In this document: in pieces, positions 3,126 through 12,353 of the stretch
Numbering within the stretch: position 1 is the first letter of the stretch
How the letters are laid out: each line of letters starts with the position of its first letter
IMG/VR virus record: IMGVR_UViG_3300020459_000031
Span: 1 to 38,260 of that record
Length of the DNA: 38,260 nt
Origin: a virus
Direction: 5' to 3' (one strand)
Position numbers and translations under genes: made by a program
The notes under the pieces: generated by a model
Seen by the model: the letters and a program-made list of their open reading frames with translations, nothing else
What the model was told of the DNA's origin: nothing
Databases searched by the model: none

Positions 3126-3170
3126 CTAAATAGAAATAACAAAACCTCATAAAATATATTTAGATGGCTT
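3119..3170. promoter_or_regulatory. Perfect 14-bp inverted repeat holding divergent start codons and two late-promoter-like boxes
   Basis: The left arm AAGCCATCTAAATA (3119-3132) and right arm TATTTAGATGGCTT (3157-3170) are exact reverse complements separated by 24 bp. Each arm contains the ATGGC start of one gene (gp4 on minus at 3125, gp54 on plus at 3164) and, on the opposite strand, a TCTAAATA box facing the other gene. Each box ends 31 nt before its ATG, so the divergent promoters are mirror images. A further near match, CATAAAATA, lies at 3148-3156. Confidence 0.7.
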
Positions 3171-4090
3171 CGGTAATTCAAGACTTTAAGATGGATATCC
3201 TTCAGAGGAGGGAGATCTCAAAGCTATCCTTAAATAATCAGTTTCAAGTTAGTATTGGTAGTTTACCTAGTGGTGTTCAGTCGTATCTTAATGTTATTGG
3301 AGTAAATTGGAGATGGATTGCTGAAAATGCTGGATTAATGTGTAACGAAGCAACTTTACCAACAAGTTCATTTGCTACTGCAGAAGTTAAGGATAATTAT
3401 CATGGTATTAACCAACAGTTTGCACATAATAGAATATATGTAGAAAGTGATTTTACATTCTATATTGATCAAAATTATAATATGATAAAGATTTTTGAGG
3501 GATGGATGGATTACATTTCAGGTGATGATATAAATGGAGATCCAGCAAGTCCTACATTTTTTAGAAGATTTAATTATCCTAATGGTAATGGTGGAACTGG
3601 TGGATATAAAGCCAGTACAATGAGTATTACAAAGTTTGAAAAAAATGACAATTATGGAAGAAGACCATCATTAACATATGTCTTTCACAATATGTTTCCA
3701 AAATCAATAATTTCTATACCAGTTGCATATGGTGCTGCTGACTTAACAAGAGTAACAGTAACATTTCAATATGATCGTTATTATATTGAGAATACTCCAG
3801 CAACTAGTATTAAATCAAATGGAGAAACTCAATCTAGCAGATATGGTATAAATCCTTTAGATAATGTCTTTGGTATTGCTTCTCTTAAAAATAGTACGGA
3901 TAGAAATAAAAGATTATCTGACTTAAGGAGAAAAACAGAAACAAGAAGAAATTCAACTGGATCTCAAGTTATGGGTAGTATAGCTTCTGGATTGGTTAAT
4001 AGGAGTTTTAGAAAGGGATTATTTAAGAATGAGACAGTTGCTCAGTTTAAAGCAGCTACACAGGGTGGTTCTACTGGAAAAGATAAATAA
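3164..4090 (+). CDS. 54: Baseplate tail-tube initiator gp54
   Basis: A 308-residue protein matching marine T4-like gp54, the subunit that together with gp48 starts polymerisation of the tail tube. Supporting regions are LMCNEATLPTSSFATAEV (about residues 58-75), HNRIYVESDFTFYIDQNYNM, FEGWMDYISG, and the C-terminal MFPKSIISIPVAYG followed by TVTFQYDRYYIE. The order of tube-like beta strands resembles the gp19/gp54 tail-tube fold. The last 70 residues are basic and low in hydrophobics. It is the first gene of the plus-strand structural operon and shares the mirror promoter with gp4. Assignment to gp54 rather than another tube-like protein rests on similarity and on gp26 following directly. Confidence 0.82.
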   Translation: MASVIQDFKMDILQRREISKLSLNNQFQVSIGSLPSGVQSYLNVIGVNWRWIAENAGLMCNEATLPTSSFATAEVKDNYHGINQQFAHNRIYVESDFTFYIDQNYNMIKIFEGWMDYISGDDINGDPASPTFFRRFNYPNGNGGTGGYKASTMSITKFEKNDNYGRRPSLTYVFHNMFPKSIISIPVAYGAADLTRVTVTFQYDRYYIENTPATSIKSNGETQSSRYGINPLDNVFGIASLKNSTDRNKRLSDLRRKTETRRNSTGSQVMGSIASGLVNRSFRKGLFKNETVAQFKAATQGGSTGKDK

Positions 4091-4127: not shown

Positions 4128-4850
4128 ATGCCTTTACCAAAAATTAATACCCCAACATATGAGTTGGAATTACCTTCTACTGGAAAAAAAGTTAGGTACA
4201 GACCATTTCTAGTAAAAGAAGAGAAAATCTTAATTATGGCATTAGAAACTGAAGATATGAAGCAGATTTCTAATTCCGTAGTTCAGATACTGAATGATTG
4301 TATTCTCTCTAGGGGTGTGAAAGTTAAAGATCTTTCCACATTTGATATTGAATATTTGTTCTTAAATATTCGTGCGAAATCTGTTGGAGAAGAAGTTGAA
4401 GTTAATGTGACTTGTCCTGATGATGGTGAGACCATTGTACAGACAGCAATTAATATTGATGATATTAATGTCCTTAAGAATCCTGAACACAAGGATACAA
4501 TTAAATTGGATGATGATTTATCTGTTCAGATGAGTTATCCTTCTATGACTCAGTTTATAGAGAATAATTTTGATTATGCTAATGATAAAACTGATGTTGA
4601 TAAATCTCTTGAGGTAATTATTTCTTGTATTAGTCAGGTGTATAATCAAGAAGAGTCTTGGTCTGCTTCTGATTGTACAAAGAAGGAATTAAAAGATTTT
4701 GTAGACTCTATGAATACTAAACAATTCAAGGAAGTTGAGAAATTTTTTGAGACTATGCCTAAATTAACTCATACTCTTAACGTCAAAAATCCTAATACCG
4801 ATGTTGAAAGTGAGGTAGTATTGGAGGGACTAGCATCTTTTTTCAGTTAG
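4128..4850 (+). CDS. 26: Baseplate hub assembly protein gp26 (frameshift donor)
   Basis: A 240-residue protein starting MPLPKINTPTYELELPSTGK, recognised as gp26 of T4-like phages, a protein needed for baseplate hub assembly. I chose the ATG at 4128; an in-frame TTG at 4113 is further upstream but less likely. Typical regions are KVRYRPFLVKEEKIL, CPDDGETI (residues about 101-108) and MSYPSMTQF. The coding sequence ends TTT TTC AGT TAG: a six-T run and slippery heptamer T TTT TTC (4838-4844) sit directly before the stop, and the gp51 frame continues in -1. This suggests that gp26 is made both alone and fused to gp51, like the frameshifted tail assembly chaperones of other long-tailed phages. 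Confidence 0.85.
   Translation: MPLPKINTPTYELELPSTGKKVRYRPFLVKEEKILIMALETEDMKQISNSVVQILNDCILSRGVKVKDLSTFDIEYLFLNIRAKSVGEEVEVNVTCPDDGETIVQTAINIDDINVLKNPEHKDTIKLDDDLSVQMSYPSMTQFIENNFDYANDKTDVDKSLEVIISCISQVYNQEESWSASDCTKKELKDFVDSMNTKQFKEVEKFFETMPKLTHTLNVKNPNTDVESEVVLEGLASFFS
4838..4844 (+). promoter_or_regulatory. Putative -1 programmed ribosomal frameshift site (T TTT TTC)
   Basis: In the gp26 frame the heptamer reads T TTT TTC, so both P- and A-site Phe tRNAs can re-pair after a one-base backward slip (TTT, TTT). The zero-frame stop TAG follows one codon later. The -1 frame then runs for 62 codons to TAA at 5030-5032 through the conserved gp51-like sequence. No obvious downstream pseudoknot was identified by eye. 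Confidence 0.7.
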
Positions 4851-5032
4851 CTCTGGCTCATGAGAATCTGGAGAATTATTATAGGACTAATTTTTCTCTC
4901 ATGCAGCATCATAAATATAGTTTAACAGAGCTTGAAAACATGATTCCGTGGGAAAGAGAAATATATGTATCTCTTCTACAACAGTATATTGAAGAAGAAA
5001 ATCTAAAGGCACAACAGAGTGGCACTAATTAA
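4844..5032 (+). CDS. 51: gp51-like baseplate hub assembly protein, probably made as a gp26-gp51 frameshift fusion
   Basis: The -1 frame relative to gp26 reads QLALAHENLENYYRTNFS, then LMQHHKYSLTELENM, IPWEREIYVSLLQQY and an acidic, Gln-rich end. The TELENMIPWEREIYV region is the conserved core I associate with the small gp51 of marine T4-like phages, a hub assembly factor. It has no start of its own: reading back in this frame there is a TGA at 4811-4813 and no ATG, GTG or TTG before the conserved region; the first ATG (4901) would remove its first 19 residues. The simplest reading is translation by -1 frameshifting from gp26. The end overlaps the GTG start of the next gene by 14 nt. Confidence 0.75.
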   Translation, partial: QLALAHENLENYYRTNFSLMQHHKYSLTELENMIPWEREIYVSLLQQYIEEENLKAQQSGTN

Positions 5033-6869
5033 CACCCAAACTCAAAAACCAAAAATAAACGTTACCAATATTAAAAGTCCTATTGGTAAACTTAGTGCTG
5101 CTCCGATATCTAAGATTGGTCGTCCTACACTTAAAGTTACTAAACCAACTATTAAACCACTTGACTTAAATATTGATACTAAACAAACAGAAACAAATGT
5201 TGGTATCTTTGATAATATTATAGGATTAGAAAAAAAGACTGAGCATGTAGAATCTAGAATACAAAATATTGAAACAAAGGTACAAGTTAATGAGGATCTT
5301 CTTCTTAATAGTATTAGAACTAAACAAGAGGAATCATTAACGGAAGTAAATAAAACATTAGTAGAAATACAAGGAATTATAACTAAAGATTTTGCTAGTA
5401 GACTTAAGAAAGAGCAAAACGATGTTAAAAAGATAAGAACACAAAGTGATAAAGATAAAAAGGCTGGTGCAGAGTCTGGTGTAGAAAAAGCAACTAAGTT
5501 TTCAAGTACTATTACTAAACAATTTGATAAAGTAGTTGCTCCTGCAAAAAGTATTTTTAGTAAATTTTTGAGTTTTCTTGGAGTTGTTGCTACTGGGTTT
5601 GTAGTAACTCCAGTATTAAAATGGTTACGAAAGTCGGAAAATTTAGATAAGGTAACAGGAATATTTAATTTTTTATCTGATAATGCAGGATATGTTATTG
5701 CATTATTAAGTGGTGCTGTAATTTTTAAAGTTATTAATAAAGTACAGAAGATATTCAGGGCATTAAGAAATCTTAGTAGATTTTTCAGAGGACAACCACA
5801 ATTAATGAATCCTCGTGGTGGTCTTCCTACAGGTGGTGGTACATCCAGTGTCGGTCAAAGTTGGTCTGGGAAATATGGTACTAAGATTACTAGGACTGGT
5901 ACAAGAACTATTGGTGGTACTAGTAGATATGGTAAAGCATTACAGCAAGGTGGAACTCCTTTAACTCATGGTAGTGGTGCAAGTAGAACAGTTTCTACTT
6001 TTAAGAGAACTAAGAGTCCACTTAGTAAAGCAATGCAGACTGTAAATGTAGGTGCTAAAAATGTTGGAAGAAATCTATTTAAGTCTGTAAGTAAGGCAGG
6101 TACTAAGTTTCTAGGTAAAGGAATTATGAAGTTTCTTAGACCTATATTAAAGAAAATACCTGTCGTTGGAGTATTACTCGATTTTGGTATATCTGTTGCA
6201 TTAGGAGAGAATCCAGGTAGAGCAGCATTTGGTGCTATAGGTGCAGGTTTACTTGGTGCAATAGGTACAATGATTGGTGGTCCTGTTGGTATGTTCCTTG
6301 GTGGTTTTGCTGGAGACTGGGCAGGTAGAAAACTTTATGATGTATTCTTTAAGAAAATGGAGAAAGGAGGAACAGTACCAGGTCCGAAGATTAATAAAGA
6401 TATTACTCCTATATTGGGTACTCCTGGAGAAAAGGTTGTTAACTTGAAGCAAAGTAAACAGTTTGGACCTTTAATAGATGATATAAACTTTAATGGTGGA
6501 TCAATAGTCAATACTATGTTATCTTCACTTAAAGAACAAGATTCTAATAATGCATCCTTTGCTGCTGCAAATACTAAATTAGCATCTTTGATATCTGGTG
6601 TTCAGGAAACATCAACTACTCCTCAAAAAGATATTAAAACTACAATACCTATTAGTACACCAGATATTGCTAAGAAAAATCTTGAAAAACCATCTAAAGG
6701 TGGATCAGAAACAATAACTCTTCCTACAATTAAACAAAATGCTGGTGGTGGGCAAGATTCTTCAGATCCTCAAGGACCAGTTCCAAGTCCAGGTATTATT
6801 AGTGCAGAAGATGAATCTAACACGTATCTTTCTTATACAATGCAAGGATTAGGGATATATCAGGTATAA
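5019..6869 (+). CDS. Putative tail tape measure / baseplate hub protein (gp29-like position)
   Basis: A 616-residue protein from a GTG start that overlaps gp51; an AAAGG lies 9 nt upstream. The N-terminus is Pro/Lys/Ile-rich, residues about 70-155 look like a coiled coil, and hydrophobic stretches follow at about 180-205 (SIFSKFLSFLGVVATGFVV) and 222-242. Residues about 385-450 form a long Gly/Ala-rich hydrophobic segment (GAIGAGLLGAIGTMIGG). The C-terminal KGGTVPGPK ... TPGEKVVNL resembles a motif common near the end of tape measure proteins. Position right after gp26/gp51 equals that of the T4 hub/tape measure region, and T4 gp29 is of similar length. Direct similarity to gp29 is not obvious, so the call is by architecture and position. 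Confidence 0.65.
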   Translation: MALINTQTQKPKINVTNIKSPIGKLSAAPISKIGRPTLKVTKPTIKPLDLNIDTKQTETNVGIFDNIIGLEKKTEHVESRIQNIETKVQVNEDLLLNSIRTKQEESLTEVNKTLVEIQGIITKDFASRLKKEQNDVKKIRTQSDKDKKAGAESGVEKATKFSSTITKQFDKVVAPAKSIFSKFLSFLGVVATGFVVTPVLKWLRKSENLDKVTGIFNFLSDNAGYVIALLSGAVIFKVINKVQKIFRALRNLSRFFRGQPQLMNPRGGLPTGGGTSSVGQSWSGKYGTKITRTGTRTIGGTSRYGKALQQGGTPLTHGSGASRTVSTFKRTKSPLSKAMQTVNVGAKNVGRNLFKSVSKAGTKFLGKGIMKFLRPILKKIPVVGVLLDFGISVALGENPGRAAFGAIGAGLLGAIGTMIGGPVGMFLGGFAGDWAGRKLYDVFFKKMEKGGTVPGPKINKDITPILGTPGEKVVNLKQSKQFGPLIDDINFNGGSIVNTMLSSLKEQDSNNASFAAANTKLASLISGVQETSTTPQKDIKTTIPISTPDIAKKNLEKPSKGGSETITLPTIKQNAGGGQDSSDPQGPVPSPGIISAEDESNTYLSYTMQGLGIYQV

Positions 6870-6872
6870 TAA

Positions 6873-8084
6873 ATGGCAGTAACTGAAAAAGAAAAACTTA
6901 AATTAAATGTCAATAATATTAAAAGTGCATTATTGGATGGTAGAAAGAACCAAAATAAGATTGATAAGACAAAGAAAAGATTGGTTTTTAAGGGAGTACA
7001 AAAACAAAAACGATTACAAGCTGAATCTAGTGTAGAGAAAAAACCTGAATCAAAAGGGTCAAAATCTAAGAATATACTTGGTGGTATTGGTAAAAGTGTA
7101 ACCAGTATTTGGGATAAGGTATTAAATTTCTTTGGTATTATAGTTATTGGTGCTCTTATTAAGAAGTTACCAGATCTTATTGATGGAATAGAAAAAACAT
7201 TTGAGAAAATAAAAGGTGTATGGGATACTATAATGGGAGCATTTACTGCTATTGGTGAATCACTTGGAAAATTAGTTAATGCTTTTACTCCTATTTTTGG
7301 TAAAGATGTATCTAAAGAATTAAAAGATGCACAAAAAGAATTAGATATTTTAGATAAAGAAACTGATCTTGAACTTGATGATCTTCCAGAACAGGAAAAA
7401 CCCACAGATGATCTTTCTGATGCTCAGATTGAGAAAATAGTTGACGATACTGTTCCAGGAACACTTAATGATTCTGGCGGTACTGGTGGTGGAGAATCTA
7501 CAGCAGCATCTTCAAACCAACCTATGAAGATTGCGAAAAGAAAGATGGGTGGTGGTATTGAAAAGAGTGAACAACCAAATCAACAACCTGCAAGATCGCC
7601 AGAATCAACTACAGAAGATAGTCCACTTAAACTATTGCCTAAAGTTGCTAAAGAATCTACAAAACCAATTAAAGTATATTCAGAAAATATTGAAAAATTA
7701 AGTGATATTTTAGGACATACTAGGGGTACTGTAACTAATAAAAGAGAAAAGGCAAAAATTGAAGCAGAGGCTCTTTATTGGGTTAATAAAGAACGAAAAG
7801 AATTTTTGGGATTACCTCCTTTAAAGAAAATAGGTTATGCGCCTGGTGTGGAACTTACAAAACAAATGGGTAAAGAATATTTTACGGGAGTAAATAGAAG
7901 TGTATCTCCAGTTGTTAATAAGACAGGTAATATGAAATTATCAAATGATTCAGAAACAACTGTAATTACCTATATTCAACCAATAGAAACTACAAAAGTT
8001 GTAAGAACTTCTACTTCATCTGGATCTTCACCAGGATTACCTGAGCTTCAATCCACTAAAACTGAACATATTCCTATACCATAA
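6873..8084 (+). CDS. Structural protein with tape-measure-like N-terminal half
   Basis: A 403-residue protein three bases downstream of the preceding gene. It begins with a Lys-rich helical segment and carries at about residues 73-95 a hydrophobic stretch, SIWDKVLNFFGIIVIGALI, that lines up with SIFSKFLSFLGVVATGFVV in the upstream protein. Next comes an acidic helix (residues about 145-190), a Gly-rich linker with MGGGIEKSEQ, and a less complex C-terminal part ending in Thr/Ser/Pro. No enzyme motif is seen. The shared segment and tandem position suggest an old duplication, with the two proteins acting together in the tail lumen or hub. Its stop overlaps the next ATG (TAATG). Confidence 0.6.
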   Translation: MAVTEKEKLKLNVNNIKSALLDGRKNQNKIDKTKKRLVFKGVQKQKRLQAESSVEKKPESKGSKSKNILGGIGKSVTSIWDKVLNFFGIIVIGALIKKLPDLIDGIEKTFEKIKGVWDTIMGAFTAIGESLGKLVNAFTPIFGKDVSKELKDAQKELDILDKETDLELDDLPEQEKPTDDLSDAQIEKIVDDTVPGTLNDSGGTGGGESTAASSNQPMKIAKRKMGGGIEKSEQPNQQPARSPESTTEDSPLKLLPKVAKESTKPIKVYSENIEKLSDILGHTRGTVTNKREKAKIEAEALYWVNKERKEFLGLPPLKKIGYAPGVELTKQMGKEYFTGVNRSVSPVVNKTGNMKLSNDSETTVITYIQPIETTKVVRTSTSSGSSPGLPELQSTKTEHIPIP

Positions 8085-9403
8085 TGGCAGTTAAATACGA
8101 GTTATTTCAAATAGTATCCGCTAATGGCGAAAATTCTGTTGATCTTTATGACGGTCAATTTAGGGTATTATCTTTTGATTATTATGAAAGTATAGTATCT
8201 CCACATATCACAGGATCTTTAGTTATTAGTAGTAGTACTGGTGCTGCTAAGTCCCAAGATGATGCACAAGAAAGAGTTGGTTCTTTATATTCATCATTAC
8301 CTCTTCGTTCAGGTTGTGTAATACTTGCTTCAGTTAAATCAGAATTAGGAAAAACATTAGATTTTCATGGTGATCCATATAAAAGATTATATGTAACTGA
8401 TGTATCAGTTATTACTAAATCTTCTACATCTGAGAATATAGTTCTTAAATTTACTTCTAAGATAGCTTTAATGAATGAAACCAGTAAGGTTAATAAACAT
8501 TATAAAGGAAAAATTACTGATTCTATTAAGAAAATTATTAAAGAGAAATTAAAAATAGATGAGGATAAGACTTTTGTTGATGAATCTGTAAATTCATATT
8601 CATTTACAGGAATGAGAAAACGACCATTTGATTTATTCATTATGTTAGCAAGACAGACTGTACCTGCTAATACTTCAAATCCTGGATATTTTTGTTTTGA
8701 GACTAAAAGTGGGTTTAGTTATCTTTCTGCAGATACTTTAATAAACCAAAAAGTATTTCCTAAAAAGTATTTTTATAATGGTGTTACTGAAGCATCTGTG
8801 GAAAAGAAAGATGATTCTAATAATTATAAGGTTGAATCTTTAGTTACAGAAAAAGATCAAAGTTTATTATCACAGATTCGTTCTGGGGTATATGCTTCTA
8901 AAAATATATTCTTCAATCCATCAACGTGTGGATTTACTGAAGTTGATATTTCTGTTGGAAACCAGTCATTATCTGCTGATCCTAAGTTCTCTTCACTAGG
9001 TAAAAAGGAAGGATTACCAAATGTTTTGGCACAAGATTTTAATGAAGGTAACAAGTTTCATAGAGTACAAACTGCTATTTTAGATATAGGTGCTGACGAA
9101 ACAAATATTGCTGCTAATAATAGTCCAGAACTCCATTATGCTGCAGGAACTGCAAGATATAATTTACTATTTTCTCAAAGTCATGCTATTCAGGTTCCAC
9201 TTAATACAGATCTTGAAGCAGGATTTGTTATTGATCTTGAGATAGAAAGTACTTCTGATGATAAGGAGCAAGGACCAGATCAAGTACAAAGTGGAAGATA
9301 TATAATTAAAAGTCTTTGTCATCACATTGATTCTAATAAGGAAGTCACTTCAATGAAACTTATTCGTGATTCATATGGATTGCATGTTACTGGGAACGAA
9401 TAA
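8084..9403 (+). CDS. 27: Baseplate hub subunit, gp27-like
   Basis: A 439-residue protein that I read as the gp27-type hub ring subunit, which in T4 forms the trimeric collar joining tail tube and puncturing device. Signs are the N-terminal MAVKYELFQIVSANG, a beta-rich first domain with SFDYYESIVSPHITGSLVI, a second domain containing SYSFTGMRKRPFDLFIMLAR (about residues 170-189), and the C-terminal SGRYIIKSLCHHIDSNKE. This layout (tube-like domain, insertion, second tube-like domain) is that of gp27 and related gpD/VgrG N-terminal regions. It is followed with TAATG overlap by the gp5-like OB protein, as expected for the gp27-gp5 complex. Confidence 0.75.
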   Translation: MAVKYELFQIVSANGENSVDLYDGQFRVLSFDYYESIVSPHITGSLVISSSTGAAKSQDDAQERVGSLYSSLPLRSGCVILASVKSELGKTLDFHGDPYKRLYVTDVSVITKSSTSENIVLKFTSKIALMNETSKVNKHYKGKITDSIKKIIKEKLKIDEDKTFVDESVNSYSFTGMRKRPFDLFIMLARQTVPANTSNPGYFCFETKSGFSYLSADTLINQKVFPKKYFYNGVTEASVEKKDDSNNYKVESLVTEKDQSLLSQIRSGVYASKNIFFNPSTCGFTEVDISVGNQSLSADPKFSSLGKKEGLPNVLAQDFNEGNKFHRVQTAILDIGADETNIAANNSPELHYAAGTARYNLLFSQSHAIQVPLNTDLEAGFVIDLEIESTSDDKEQGPDQVQSGRYIIKSLCHHIDSNKEVTSMKLIRDSYGLHVTGNE

Positions 9404-9969
9404 TGGATTTATCTAATCTTAACTTTTATGGTCTTAGTACACATGAGTGGATAGGGGTTATTTTGCCTTTAGAATCTCAGAAAGAACAATCTTCAGGTAG
9501 TGTTGGTTGGGGATGGAGATATAAAGTAGCAATTATGGGATATCATCCTAATGATCAGACTCTTAAAGATGATGAAGTTACTTATGCATTAGTTGCTCTT
9601 GGAGTATCTGATGGTTCTGGTGCAGCAGGAAGACAAAGAACACCAAGATTAATTCAAGGTGATGTTGTTCTTGGTAAATTTTTAGATGGTGATAAGAAAC
9701 AAGTGCCTCTTATTACTAATGTTTTGGGTAGAACCTCAGAAACTAAACTTATAAACGCTAGGTTTGGTGCTAAAACTGGATTTGTTGGTGGATTAAAACC
9801 AGGTGTGACAGAAAATCAAGAATTTGCTGAGAATGATAATGTATCAACCCCACAAGTAAAACCAGCATCTAATAATACTGCACAAAATGCTACGACACCT
9901 ACTGGTGCTATTAATAGAATGGGATTATCAAGTACTCCACAGGTAGGTGGAATACCAAAACCTCAATAA
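9403..9969 (+). CDS. 5: gp5-like OB-fold baseplate hub protein (no lysozyme domain)
   Basis: The 188-residue product carries a gp5/VgrG-type OB domain over about residues 8-115: STHEWIGVILPLESQ, WRYKVAIMGYHP, then TYALVALGVSDGSG, LIQGDVVLGKFLDGDKKQVP and NVLGRT. In T4, gp5 has an N-terminal OB domain, a lysozyme domain and a C-terminal beta-helix. Here only the OB domain is present, followed by a Pro/Asn/Thr-rich tail of about 60 residues. The beta-helix-like portion is encoded separately at 11802, after an intervening 602-residue protein. The start overlaps the gp27-like stop. Confidence 0.75.
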   Translation: MDLSNLNFYGLSTHEWIGVILPLESQKEQSSGSVGWGWRYKVAIMGYHPNDQTLKDDEVTYALVALGVSDGSGAAGRQRTPRLIQGDVVLGKFLDGDKKQVPLITNVLGRTSETKLINARFGAKTGFVGGLKPGVTENQEFAENDNVSTPQVKPASNNTAQNATTPTGAINRMGLSSTPQVGGIPKPQ

Positions 9970-9972
9970 ATA
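9965..9972 (+). promoter_or_regulatory. Late promoter box (AATAAATA)
   Basis: AATAAATA overlaps the stop codon of the OB-fold gene and lies 24 nt before the ATG at 9997, the same spacing as the TATAAATA before gp26. Confidence 0.65.
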
Positions 9973-9996
9973 AAAATAGGAAATAGAACTTAATTC

Positions 9997-11805
9997 ATGG
10001 TTGCTTCACTTTCAAAAGTTCAAATTGATACTTTCACTAATCTCATTGAAGATAATCCGAAGGGATGGGAAAATGAGATTATTGATATTAAATCAAAGTA
10101 TTCTGATGTATTTAAGAAGGTATCTCCTCGTATAGAAAAGGACTTAAAGAAATTAAGTCCAGAGGATTACATGGTATGGCAAGATAGATTAAAAGAATAT
10201 AAGAAAGCAATAAGACCAGAAGTATCTCCTGCATCTTTTAGTACAGGAAGAGTTATTAATTTTGCAAATCCTTCTACTAATAGTTTTTTTGGTAAGACAG
10301 ATGGTGCATTAAAGAATTTTATGGGATTAGCTACTAATCCTTCTCTTTCTGGAGCATTAGATCTTGGAGGAGAGATTGCTGCTGCTTCGTCTAAAATTAG
10401 TAGTTTATCATCAGGATTTACCACTCAGATAACCAGTAGTTTGGGTGATTCATTATCTGGAGCTATTTCTGGGGGTCTTGCATCTAAAGCAGCAATAATA
10501 TTTGCAATGTATCCTGGTGCTAAATTATATGCTAAAGCATTAAAAAAAGTTATTGAGATGCAGACAAGTGTACTTGGACCTGCATTAAATATGTTTGAAG
10601 GACTTGAGTGTGTAGGAGATAAAGTTGGTGATGCGATGAAAGGTGTTATTGAAGATATGTTGGTTGAGATGGTTAAAAATTCTAAGCAAGTACCTGAATG
10701 TGCTAGTACAGAGTTTATTGGTGCAATTACTAATCAAATCACTGATAAGATTGATGGATTAGTTAGTCCACAATTAAGTGGAATTTCTAATATTTTAGGA
10801 GTAGCAATGAATGTAAAAGATATATTAAATCAAGGAATTAGTACGATTGATAATTTTTCTGGTTTATTTAAGTGTGGTGATAAGGAACCAACTTCTCTTA
10901 GTAAATATAAAATTGATGGTGGATTATTGAATATGTTAGATCCTGGTCAAGAACAGGCATTGATTGATAAAGCATTTGCAATGAGTGGTAGAAGTTCAGT
11001 TGGAAATGATATGTTAAATGCTTTTGAGCAAGCATATGGTGTATTTAATATTTTTGGTGGTTCTTCTAGTGGTGGTGCTGCTGGAATGAGTCCATGTAAT
11101 AGTAGAGATAATCCACCTCCAGGATCATGTGGTGCTCCTAAAGTTGAATTTTTTGGAGGTGGTGGTTCAGGTGCTCAAGGTGAAGTTATACTAGGCAAGT
11201 TTATTAATAAACTTGATAAAACTGATATTTATGGAGATATTATAAAAACTGCAAGTCTTATGGGTGTTAAAATAACACATCCAGGATCTAAGTACGAAAG
11301 AGAACCTATGGTATCTTTTACTGATCCCTGTAATCAAGGATATGGTGGTTATGGTAGAGCAGTTATTGATAAAAATATAAATTCACCAACTTATGGACAT
11401 CTTATTGATGTTATCATTATAAGTGAAGGTGAAAATTATCCAACATCAGGATATGTGGTTGAAGGTGCTGATGGAGATACTCCAGATCCATTTATTGATC
11501 ATATAATATGTGATCCTGGTGGATTTACATATGATATTGATGACTTTATAGAAGGAGTTGATCCTATTAGTGGAGAAATAGTACCTAATGAAGATTTTAT
11601 AATTAATATTAATCCTGATACTGGAGAAATTGTTAGTGTTACTTTAACTGCTGCTGGTGCAAATAAAAGATATGCTGCTTTCCCACAACTAAATATTAAT
11701 ACAACTACTGGTGTAGGTGCTGTTCTTCGTCCGATTATGTCAACAACTAGAAGTTCTATTGCATCAGATGAAGTTGTTGAATCTATTGATTGTATTACAA
11801 AATGA
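9997..11805 (+). CDS. Virion structural protein of unknown function, inserted between gp5-like parts
   Basis: A 602-residue protein without a named domain that I can assign. The first 80 residues are charged and helical, followed by a Ser/Gly/Ala-rich region (about 90-170) with a hydrophobic stretch AAIIFAMYPGAKLYAKAL. Residues about 195-300 are helical with sparse Cys. The C-terminal 200 residues are beta-rich with VDVIIISEGENYPTSGY-like and VSVTLTAAGANKRY repeats, a form often seen in marine phage tail proteins. It starts behind a late promoter box and ends in an ATGA overlap with the beta-helix gene. Gene order suggests a hub or spike component; no lysozyme Glu/Asp/Thr triad is recognisable. 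Confidence 0.6.
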   Translation: MVASLSKVQIDTFTNLIEDNPKGWENEIIDIKSKYSDVFKKVSPRIEKDLKKLSPEDYMVWQDRLKEYKKAIRPEVSPASFSTGRVINFANPSTNSFFGKTDGALKNFMGLATNPSLSGALDLGGEIAAASSKISSLSSGFTTQITSSLGDSLSGAISGGLASKAAIIFAMYPGAKLYAKALKKVIEMQTSVLGPALNMFEGLECVGDKVGDAMKGVIEDMLVEMVKNSKQVPECASTEFIGAITNQITDKIDGLVSPQLSGISNILGVAMNVKDILNQGISTIDNFSGLFKCGDKEPTSLSKYKIDGGLLNMLDPGQEQALIDKAFAMSGRSSVGNDMLNAFEQAYGVFNIFGGSSSGGAAGMSPCNSRDNPPPGSCGAPKVEFFGGGGSGAQGEVILGKFINKLDKTDIYGDIIKTASLMGVKITHPGSKYEREPMVSFTDPCNQGYGGYGRAVIDKNINSPTYGHLIDVIIISEGENYPTSGYVVEGADGDTPDPFIDHIICDPGGFTYDIDDFIEGVDPISGEIVPNEDFIININPDTGEIVSVTLTAAGANKRYAAFPQLNINTTTGVGAVLRPIMSTTRSSIASDEVVESIDCITK

Positions 11806-12353
11806 CGCAGTTAAAAAGACAGGTCGATTCTTTTGGACCAAAACTAGTTATAGAATCTGGATCAGATGAAGTAGGTGTTCCTGGAAGAACCACTTATCAG
11901 TTATTGTCTACCAATGATTCTGGTTTTAAGTACAACCAATCTCATCATGAAAATGGTATAAGTAGATTTTATTCTGATGGTAAGATTCAGGTTGAAGCAA
12001 TGGCACATCCCAAAGCATCTCCTGATGATACTGGTATGGCAATCATTGTACATAAGGGTAATATTGGTGTAGATGCCAATAGTGGTGATGTTTCAATTTC
12101 TGGTAGGAATATTACTATTGCTGCTGAAGATACTTTAATTCTTAAAGGAAATAAGATTCAGATTGGAGAGTCTAAAAAAGGAACAAGGTCTATTGATATG
12201 ATGGCAAATAAAATACATTGTCATGATCCAAGACTTGGTAATATAGCATTAGTTTTAAGAACACATAATATTTTTAGGTCATTTGCTGGTAGTTATTTGG
12301 GTTATGCCAAAATAGCAGCTAAAGCATCAGGTTTATCAGGGTTCCCACTATGA
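11802..12353 (+). CDS. gp5 C-terminal/VgrG-like beta-helix spike protein
   Basis: The ATG at 11802 overlaps the previous stop (ATGA); a TTG further upstream at 11790 was rejected. The 183-residue product has the short-period beta-strand pattern of the gp5/VgrG needle: GDVSISGRNITIAAEDTLIL and KGNKIQIG (residues about 95-125), plus SRFYSDGKIQVEA earlier. Such trimeric beta-helices form the membrane-puncturing needle of contractile tails. The C-terminal 45 residues are not helix-like (HNIFRSFAGSYLGYAK). Here the needle is a separate gene from the OB domain, unlike T4. It overlaps the next gene by ATGA. Confidence 0.65.
   Translation: MTQLKRQVDSFGPKLVIESGSDEVGVPGRTTYQLLSTNDSGFKYNQSHHENGISRFYSDGKIQVEAMAHPKASPDDTGMAIIVHKGNIGVDANSGDVSISGRNITIAAEDTLILKGNKIQIGESKKGTRSIDMMANKIHCHDPRLGNIALVLRTHNIFRSFAGSYLGYAKIAAKASGLSGFPL

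Follow-up and report, generated by a model that had tools for sequence, protein, structure and literature searches.

In the 38,260-nucleotide stretch of viral DNA analysed here (the window), the short gp26 and the gp51-like frame behind it very probably belong to one gene, from which -1 programmed ribosomal frameshifting would produce a short and a long tail assembly chaperone, as lambda does with G and GT. The original prediction proposed such a fusion from features that we could read directly: a T TTT TTC at the end of gp26, gp51 in the -1 frame with a TGA at 4811, and a gp51 without a start codon of its own, no ATG, GTG or TTG preceding its conserved residues. All of these were present. Reading the frames likewise bears out the predicted product: after a -1 slip F239 would be retained, the last residue of gp26 exchanged and 62 residues added, making 301 in total.

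The gp26-gp51 junction

The features of the locus and its surroundings, all on the + strand, are as follows.

3164..4090, +, upstream tail tube gene (phrog_45 tail tube, E 4.5e-35)
4128..4850, +, gene 26, short product of 240 amino acids, TAC-N-like (PF12322 T4_baseplate, E 1.8e-72, residues 9-239; phrog_150 baseplate hub, E 4e-79)
4811..4813, +, TGA closing the -1 frame upstream (read in the sequence)
4824..4829, +, GGAGGG, Shine-Dalgarno (SD)-like, presumed stimulator, 8 nt before the slippery run (codon bias at -5/-4 in relatives)
4838..4844, +, slippery heptamer T TTT TTC (in-phase T TTT TTN in 253/256 and 45/45 readable relatives)
4844..5032, +, gp51-like -1 extension, 62 codons and TAA, TAC-C-like (phrog_634 baseplate hub assembly catalyst, E 4e-31, a family for which no curated cut-off exists)
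4848..4850, +, gp26 stop TAG, bypassed by the slip (read in the sequence; slip-to-stop distance variable among relatives)
4856..4907, +, predicted RNA stem downstream of the slip, possible but weak stimulator (-16.4 kcal/mol; no consensus across 97 relatives)
5019..6869, +, downstream gene whose GTG start overlaps the extension (partial endolysin/unknown phrog matches)
6873..8084, +, tape-measure-like gene (phrog_1535 and phrog_991 tail length tape measure, E about 1e-4, weak)

Gene 26 ends GCA TCT TTT TTC AGT TAG, with the T run at 4838-4843, and the gp51-like frame, -1 relative to it, closes at the TAA at 5030-5032. The first ATG, GTG or TTG of the extension is an ATG located 53 nt beyond the first base of the gp26 stop; it encodes residue 20 and falls after the conserved H6, L9, Y12, N16 and F17. 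The PF12322 match of gp26 scores 244 bits against a curated cut-off of 24.5. Furthermore, the extension matches positions 227-278 of phrog_150, the gp26 family, which indicates that the gp26 and gp51 parts are joined in some phages.

Within the window, 12,343 codons contain 6 instances of an in-phase T TTT TT, and among 28 gene ends gp26 alone combines a T TTT TTN near its stop with a long -1 frame behind it. An open frame of 62 codons arises by itself in 17% of random placements and is weak evidence alone; the weight of the case is carried instead by the slip site that 298 of 301 relatives share.

Conservation of the slip site and alternative readings

Relatives were gathered with gp26 proteins or a gp26 alignment; the junction lay outside every printed search pattern. 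KVP40 gp26 as a query found only 2 loci. A junction alignment across many marine T4-like phages had been named beforehand as a check, and among the relatives collected here the T run and the -1 register are conserved: 298 of the 301 readable gp26 junctions have T TTT TTN in phase, followed by gp51 in the -1 frame, a count that includes near-copies and duplicates (KVP40, for example, appears twice), the statistics being based on 147 representatives with <90% nucleotide identity. The first set contributed 253 of 256 readable junctions (TTTTTTC 200, TTTTTTA 29, TTTTTTT 23, TTTTTTG 1), L085 and L090 being left out for want of a usable gp26 match and L194 for want of a stop. In the second set, drawn from genome assemblies, all 45 readable junctions were positive at protein identities of about 33-75% (31-72% to the window), with L282 (masked) and L305 (cut) left out. 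Three entries lack the slip: in the distant Vibrio phages K475 and GR28A a TAATG overlap is found instead, and for Aeromonas phage 31 the matched protein is gp51 and not gp26.

T4-like phage contigs were also seen at 47 loci of prokaryote assemblies (L259-L305), mostly MAGs, some named Euryarchaeota and one a Heimdallarchaeota bin; these are probably misbinned phage DNA.

Every one of the 253 slip loci in the first set has a -1 frame that stays open beyond the slip; where the extension is complete, as it is in 244 of them, it measures 56-68 amino acids. The distance from the slip to the gp26 stop is 6, 9, 15, 30 or 33 nt among the relatives. In L287, L296, L297 and L300 the stop lies 15 or 30 nt past the slip, not 6-9, and the slip and the -1 extension are retained; since the stop shifts while the slip stays, it is the slip that is conserved. 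The heptamer reads TTTTTTC in 121 of the representatives, TTTTTTA in 14, TTTTTTT in 11 and TTTTTTG in 1, and Phe-Phe pairs elsewhere in gp26 are encoded by TTT TTC in only 7 of 166 cases. The codon before the slip always ends in T, which is partly a product of the six-T selection rule (only 3/256 failed it). Judged from these sequences, the slip site is neither a chance occurrence nor a sequencing error, given that 298 of 301 junctions share it.

The alternative that survives best has ribosomes re-initiating, or initiating internally, just past the gp26 stop and making gp51 as a small protein in its own right. An ATG is present early in the extension in 85 of the 147 representatives and directly after the gp26 stop in 59, where a separate gp51 is possible too; it is annotated as the gp51 start in P-SSM2, S-SKS1, S-SSM7 and S-SRM01, KVP40, S-CRM01 and others have TAATG overlaps, and K475 and GR28A, which lack the slip, still have gp51 with a TAATG overlap. 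Against this, given that the window and 38 other representatives (39/147) have no ATG, GTG or TTG in the scanned start of the extension, that 23 more have only GTG or TTG, that the SD-like element lies about 24 nt before the post-stop ATG, too far for initiation by the standard spacing between SD and start, and that T TTT TTN is in phase in 147 of 147 representatives, albeit in a set selected for six T, we consider separate initiation very unlikely. It is the slippery run, and not a gp51 ATG, that the related genomes conserve.

Polymerase slippage on the six-T run, by which some mRNAs would carry gp26 and gp51 in one frame, strikes us as more improbable again. A T run is found in every slip locus and is longer in some (nine T in L293), but six T is short for transcriptional slippage, and the final C, kept in 121 of the 147 representatives, and the position of the run, in T TTT TTN phase and preceded by an SD-like element, point to the ribosome. 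Homopolymers are error-prone in general, yet the idea that an error in the T run hides a gene that is truly in one frame has no specific support and is refuted by conservation, since the six-T run and the -1 register recur in the isolates P-SSM2, S-SKS1, S-SSM7, S-SRM01, KVP40 and RHph_I1_18 and in unrelated, independent assemblies.

Stimulatory elements and candidate function

Frameshifting by the ribosome is the reading that we carry forward, and we propose a model that infers the slip itself, its efficiency, the role of the stimulator and the chaperone function from the observed sequence signals, their conservation, homology and a fold model. Genes 26 and 51 would be one gene read in two ways. 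Most ribosomes would stop at the TAG at 4848, giving the 240-residue gp26, the short chaperone. For a minority, pairing between 16S rRNA and the GGAGGG (4824-4829) would probably cause a pause; these ribosomes would shift by -1 on T TTT TTC and add 62 residues, giving the 301-residue gp26-gp51, the long chaperone. By analogy with lambda gpG and gpGT, the short chaperone would form a coat on the tape measure protein, and recruiting tail tube subunits would fall to the long one.

Codon choice in the relatives bears on the presumed stimulator. Five codons before the slip, Glu is encoded by GAG in 94 of 140 cases (27% at other sites; binomial P 4e-23), and at the next codon, four before the slip, Gly is encoded by GGR in 103 of 146 (40% at other sites; P 1e-13), both tests treating as independent sequences that are not; GGG at this Gly codon accounts for 44 of 146 against 7%. 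Such a bias indicates that the upstream SD-like GAG-GGR is under selection at synonymous sites. The accessible text of one paper describes SD-like sequences upstream of -1 slip sites as a known bacterial stimulator (PMC4066793).

Downstream of the slip, folding is somewhat stronger than in controls (mean z -1.12 to -1.83, n=71-73, against -0.57 to +0.09, n=74). A downstream pseudoknot or stem as a general stimulator was rejected, since RNAalifold gave no consensus structure over the 97 relatives put into the DNA alignment from 144 junction sequences listed. All five pairs of a 5-bp hairpin of the GGTCC-ATAT-GGACC type are found in 24 of 144 representatives, where synonymous shuffling gives 13.8 +/- 2.0 (0/1000), an excess which suggests that the hairpin is lineage-restricted; counted at >=4 of 5 pairs, the 44 found against 38.9 expected (71/1000) are unconvincing. 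The window has 4 of the 5 pairs. Perfect hairpins of this type, about 10 nt past the slip and with compensatory changes, were seen in one sub-lineage (L123, L139, L167, L172 and others).

The original prediction compared gp26 and gp51 with tail assembly chaperones. Gene order agrees with this: the tail tube gene is followed by gp26/gp51, the 5019-6869 gene and then the tape-measure-like gene at 6873-8084. The fold agrees moderately. An AlphaFold2 model of gp26 (mean pLDDT 90.0, pTM 0.84), built on 108 of 137 listed gp26 references, has an N-terminal domain that VIA-align places on the HK97 tail assembly chaperone 2ob9 with Z 7.7 (84 residues aligned, 4.0 A), alongside 3fgx (Z 8.0), 3klu (7.0), 5ir0 (4.8) and a next row at 3.8. 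Foldseek of the same model returned no match at E<=0.001 against the PDB and ranked 2ob9 second, at E 0.72 (prob 0.63). By sequence, gp26 reached Pfam Phage_TAC_14 at E 0.063, below the cut-off, and its profile matched no solved structure but one, at E 0.3; a model of a T4-like gp51 had no chaperone among its 50 listed VIA rows. The modelled gp26 fold thus appears to resemble the HK97 tail assembly chaperone, which is favourable but not proof. Where the comparison falls short is in the tape-measure identity of the downstream genes, the phrog matches being weak (E about 1e-4).

None of the frameshift-type records examined joins gp26 and gp51; gp51 is listed separately or omitted. Its annotation would be corrected to an extension of gp26 rather than a separate or missing gene, and the protein called a "hub assembly catalyst" would gain a testable function as the long tail assembly chaperone. 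Elsewhere in the window, three consecutive ORFs at 9403-12353 between them carry matches to tail lysozyme/hub families (phrog_1922, phrog_4540); the last of these ORFs begins at an ATGA overlap near 11802 and not at the listed TTG.

Comparison with lambda and T4

In lambda, G and GT lie between the tail tube gene and the tape measure gene, and the slippery sequence is G GGA AAG. The window locus is sited between a clear tail tube gene and genes with weak tape-measure matches; in contrast, its T TTT TTC is a different slippery sequence, and it carries an upstream SD-like element that sets it apart from gpG/gpGT. Pfam and phrog family scans of the window proteins found no lambda gpG relative. 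The arrangement of a short ORF with a -1 extension and a slip near the 3' end is common to both, as far as the accessible text of a 2016 review describes lambda (PMC5009743), and the same text has G-T frameshifting widely conserved in long-tailed phages except T4.

According to the accessible parts of papers that cite it, tail assembly chaperone frameshifting has already been published for T4-like phages by Vladimirov, Gautam and Davidson in 2022 (PMC10885494, PMC12846349, PMC12859696, PMC11131426), and the available text of one adds that some T4-like phages have a short gene plus a fused long gene instead (PMC10885494). The predicted role of gp26/gp51 as the T4-like counterpart of the frameshifted chaperones is thus supported but, on these accounts, not new. 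The window locus fits the published mechanism and is a well-supported new example of it. Reportedly, the 2022 study found frameshifting conserved in several T4-like groups and genes 26 and 51 separate in T4. In the literature searched, with subscription papers mostly outside it, we found no report of an SD-like element at the gp26 slip and no survey of marine contigs; as far as that search goes, the selection on the SD-like element and the breadth among uncultured marine T4-like phages are new.

T4 gp26 and gp51 are described, in the accessible parts of the two sources, as hub assembly chaperones, with the function of gp51 unknown (PMC3004832), and as proposed chaperones or cofactors (PMC9024508). 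Whereas the window has one locus with frames offset by -1, T4 has two genes on opposite strands, and its gene 26 ends without a T6 run, in Glu-Phe-Phe-Glu-Leu-Leu with codons that do not form a slip. T4 gp26 aligns with the short form of the window, and T4 gp51 is colinear with gp26 plus extension: by hhalign, the gp26 profile matches T4 gp51 residues 6-186 (E 1.7e-9) and the extension profile, from an alignment of 57 of 129 references counted, matches residues 207-245 (E 2.4e-6). In the model of a T4-like gp51 (AlphaFold2, pLDDT 87.5, 9 sequences) the elements come in this same order, and additional helices follow. Since T4 gp51 aligns with both parts, we believe it to be the long form as a single gene, and in T4 the short and the long form seem each to come from a gene of their own.

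In a tree of 34 rows, the frameshift type, T4 gp26 and T4 gp51 each fall on one side of a branch (92/89, 97/98 and 100/100) and K475 and GR28A are nested with the frameshift type; its root is not resolved, so the branch order does not say which state is older, and 11 rows called _FS (the window, P-SSM2 and others) were shortened by a constant 58 residues and may retain a few extension residues. In K475 (L093) and GR28A (L094) the gp51-like frame is still -1, with a TAATG stop-start overlap and no T6 slip. We tentatively suggest, at slightly below an even chance, that frameshifting tuned by an SD-like element is the older state, and that T4 genes 26 and 51, through a duplicated long gene, and the overlap of the K475/GR28A type, through re-initiation, are later replacements. 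Within one family, the same two products would be supplied in three ways.
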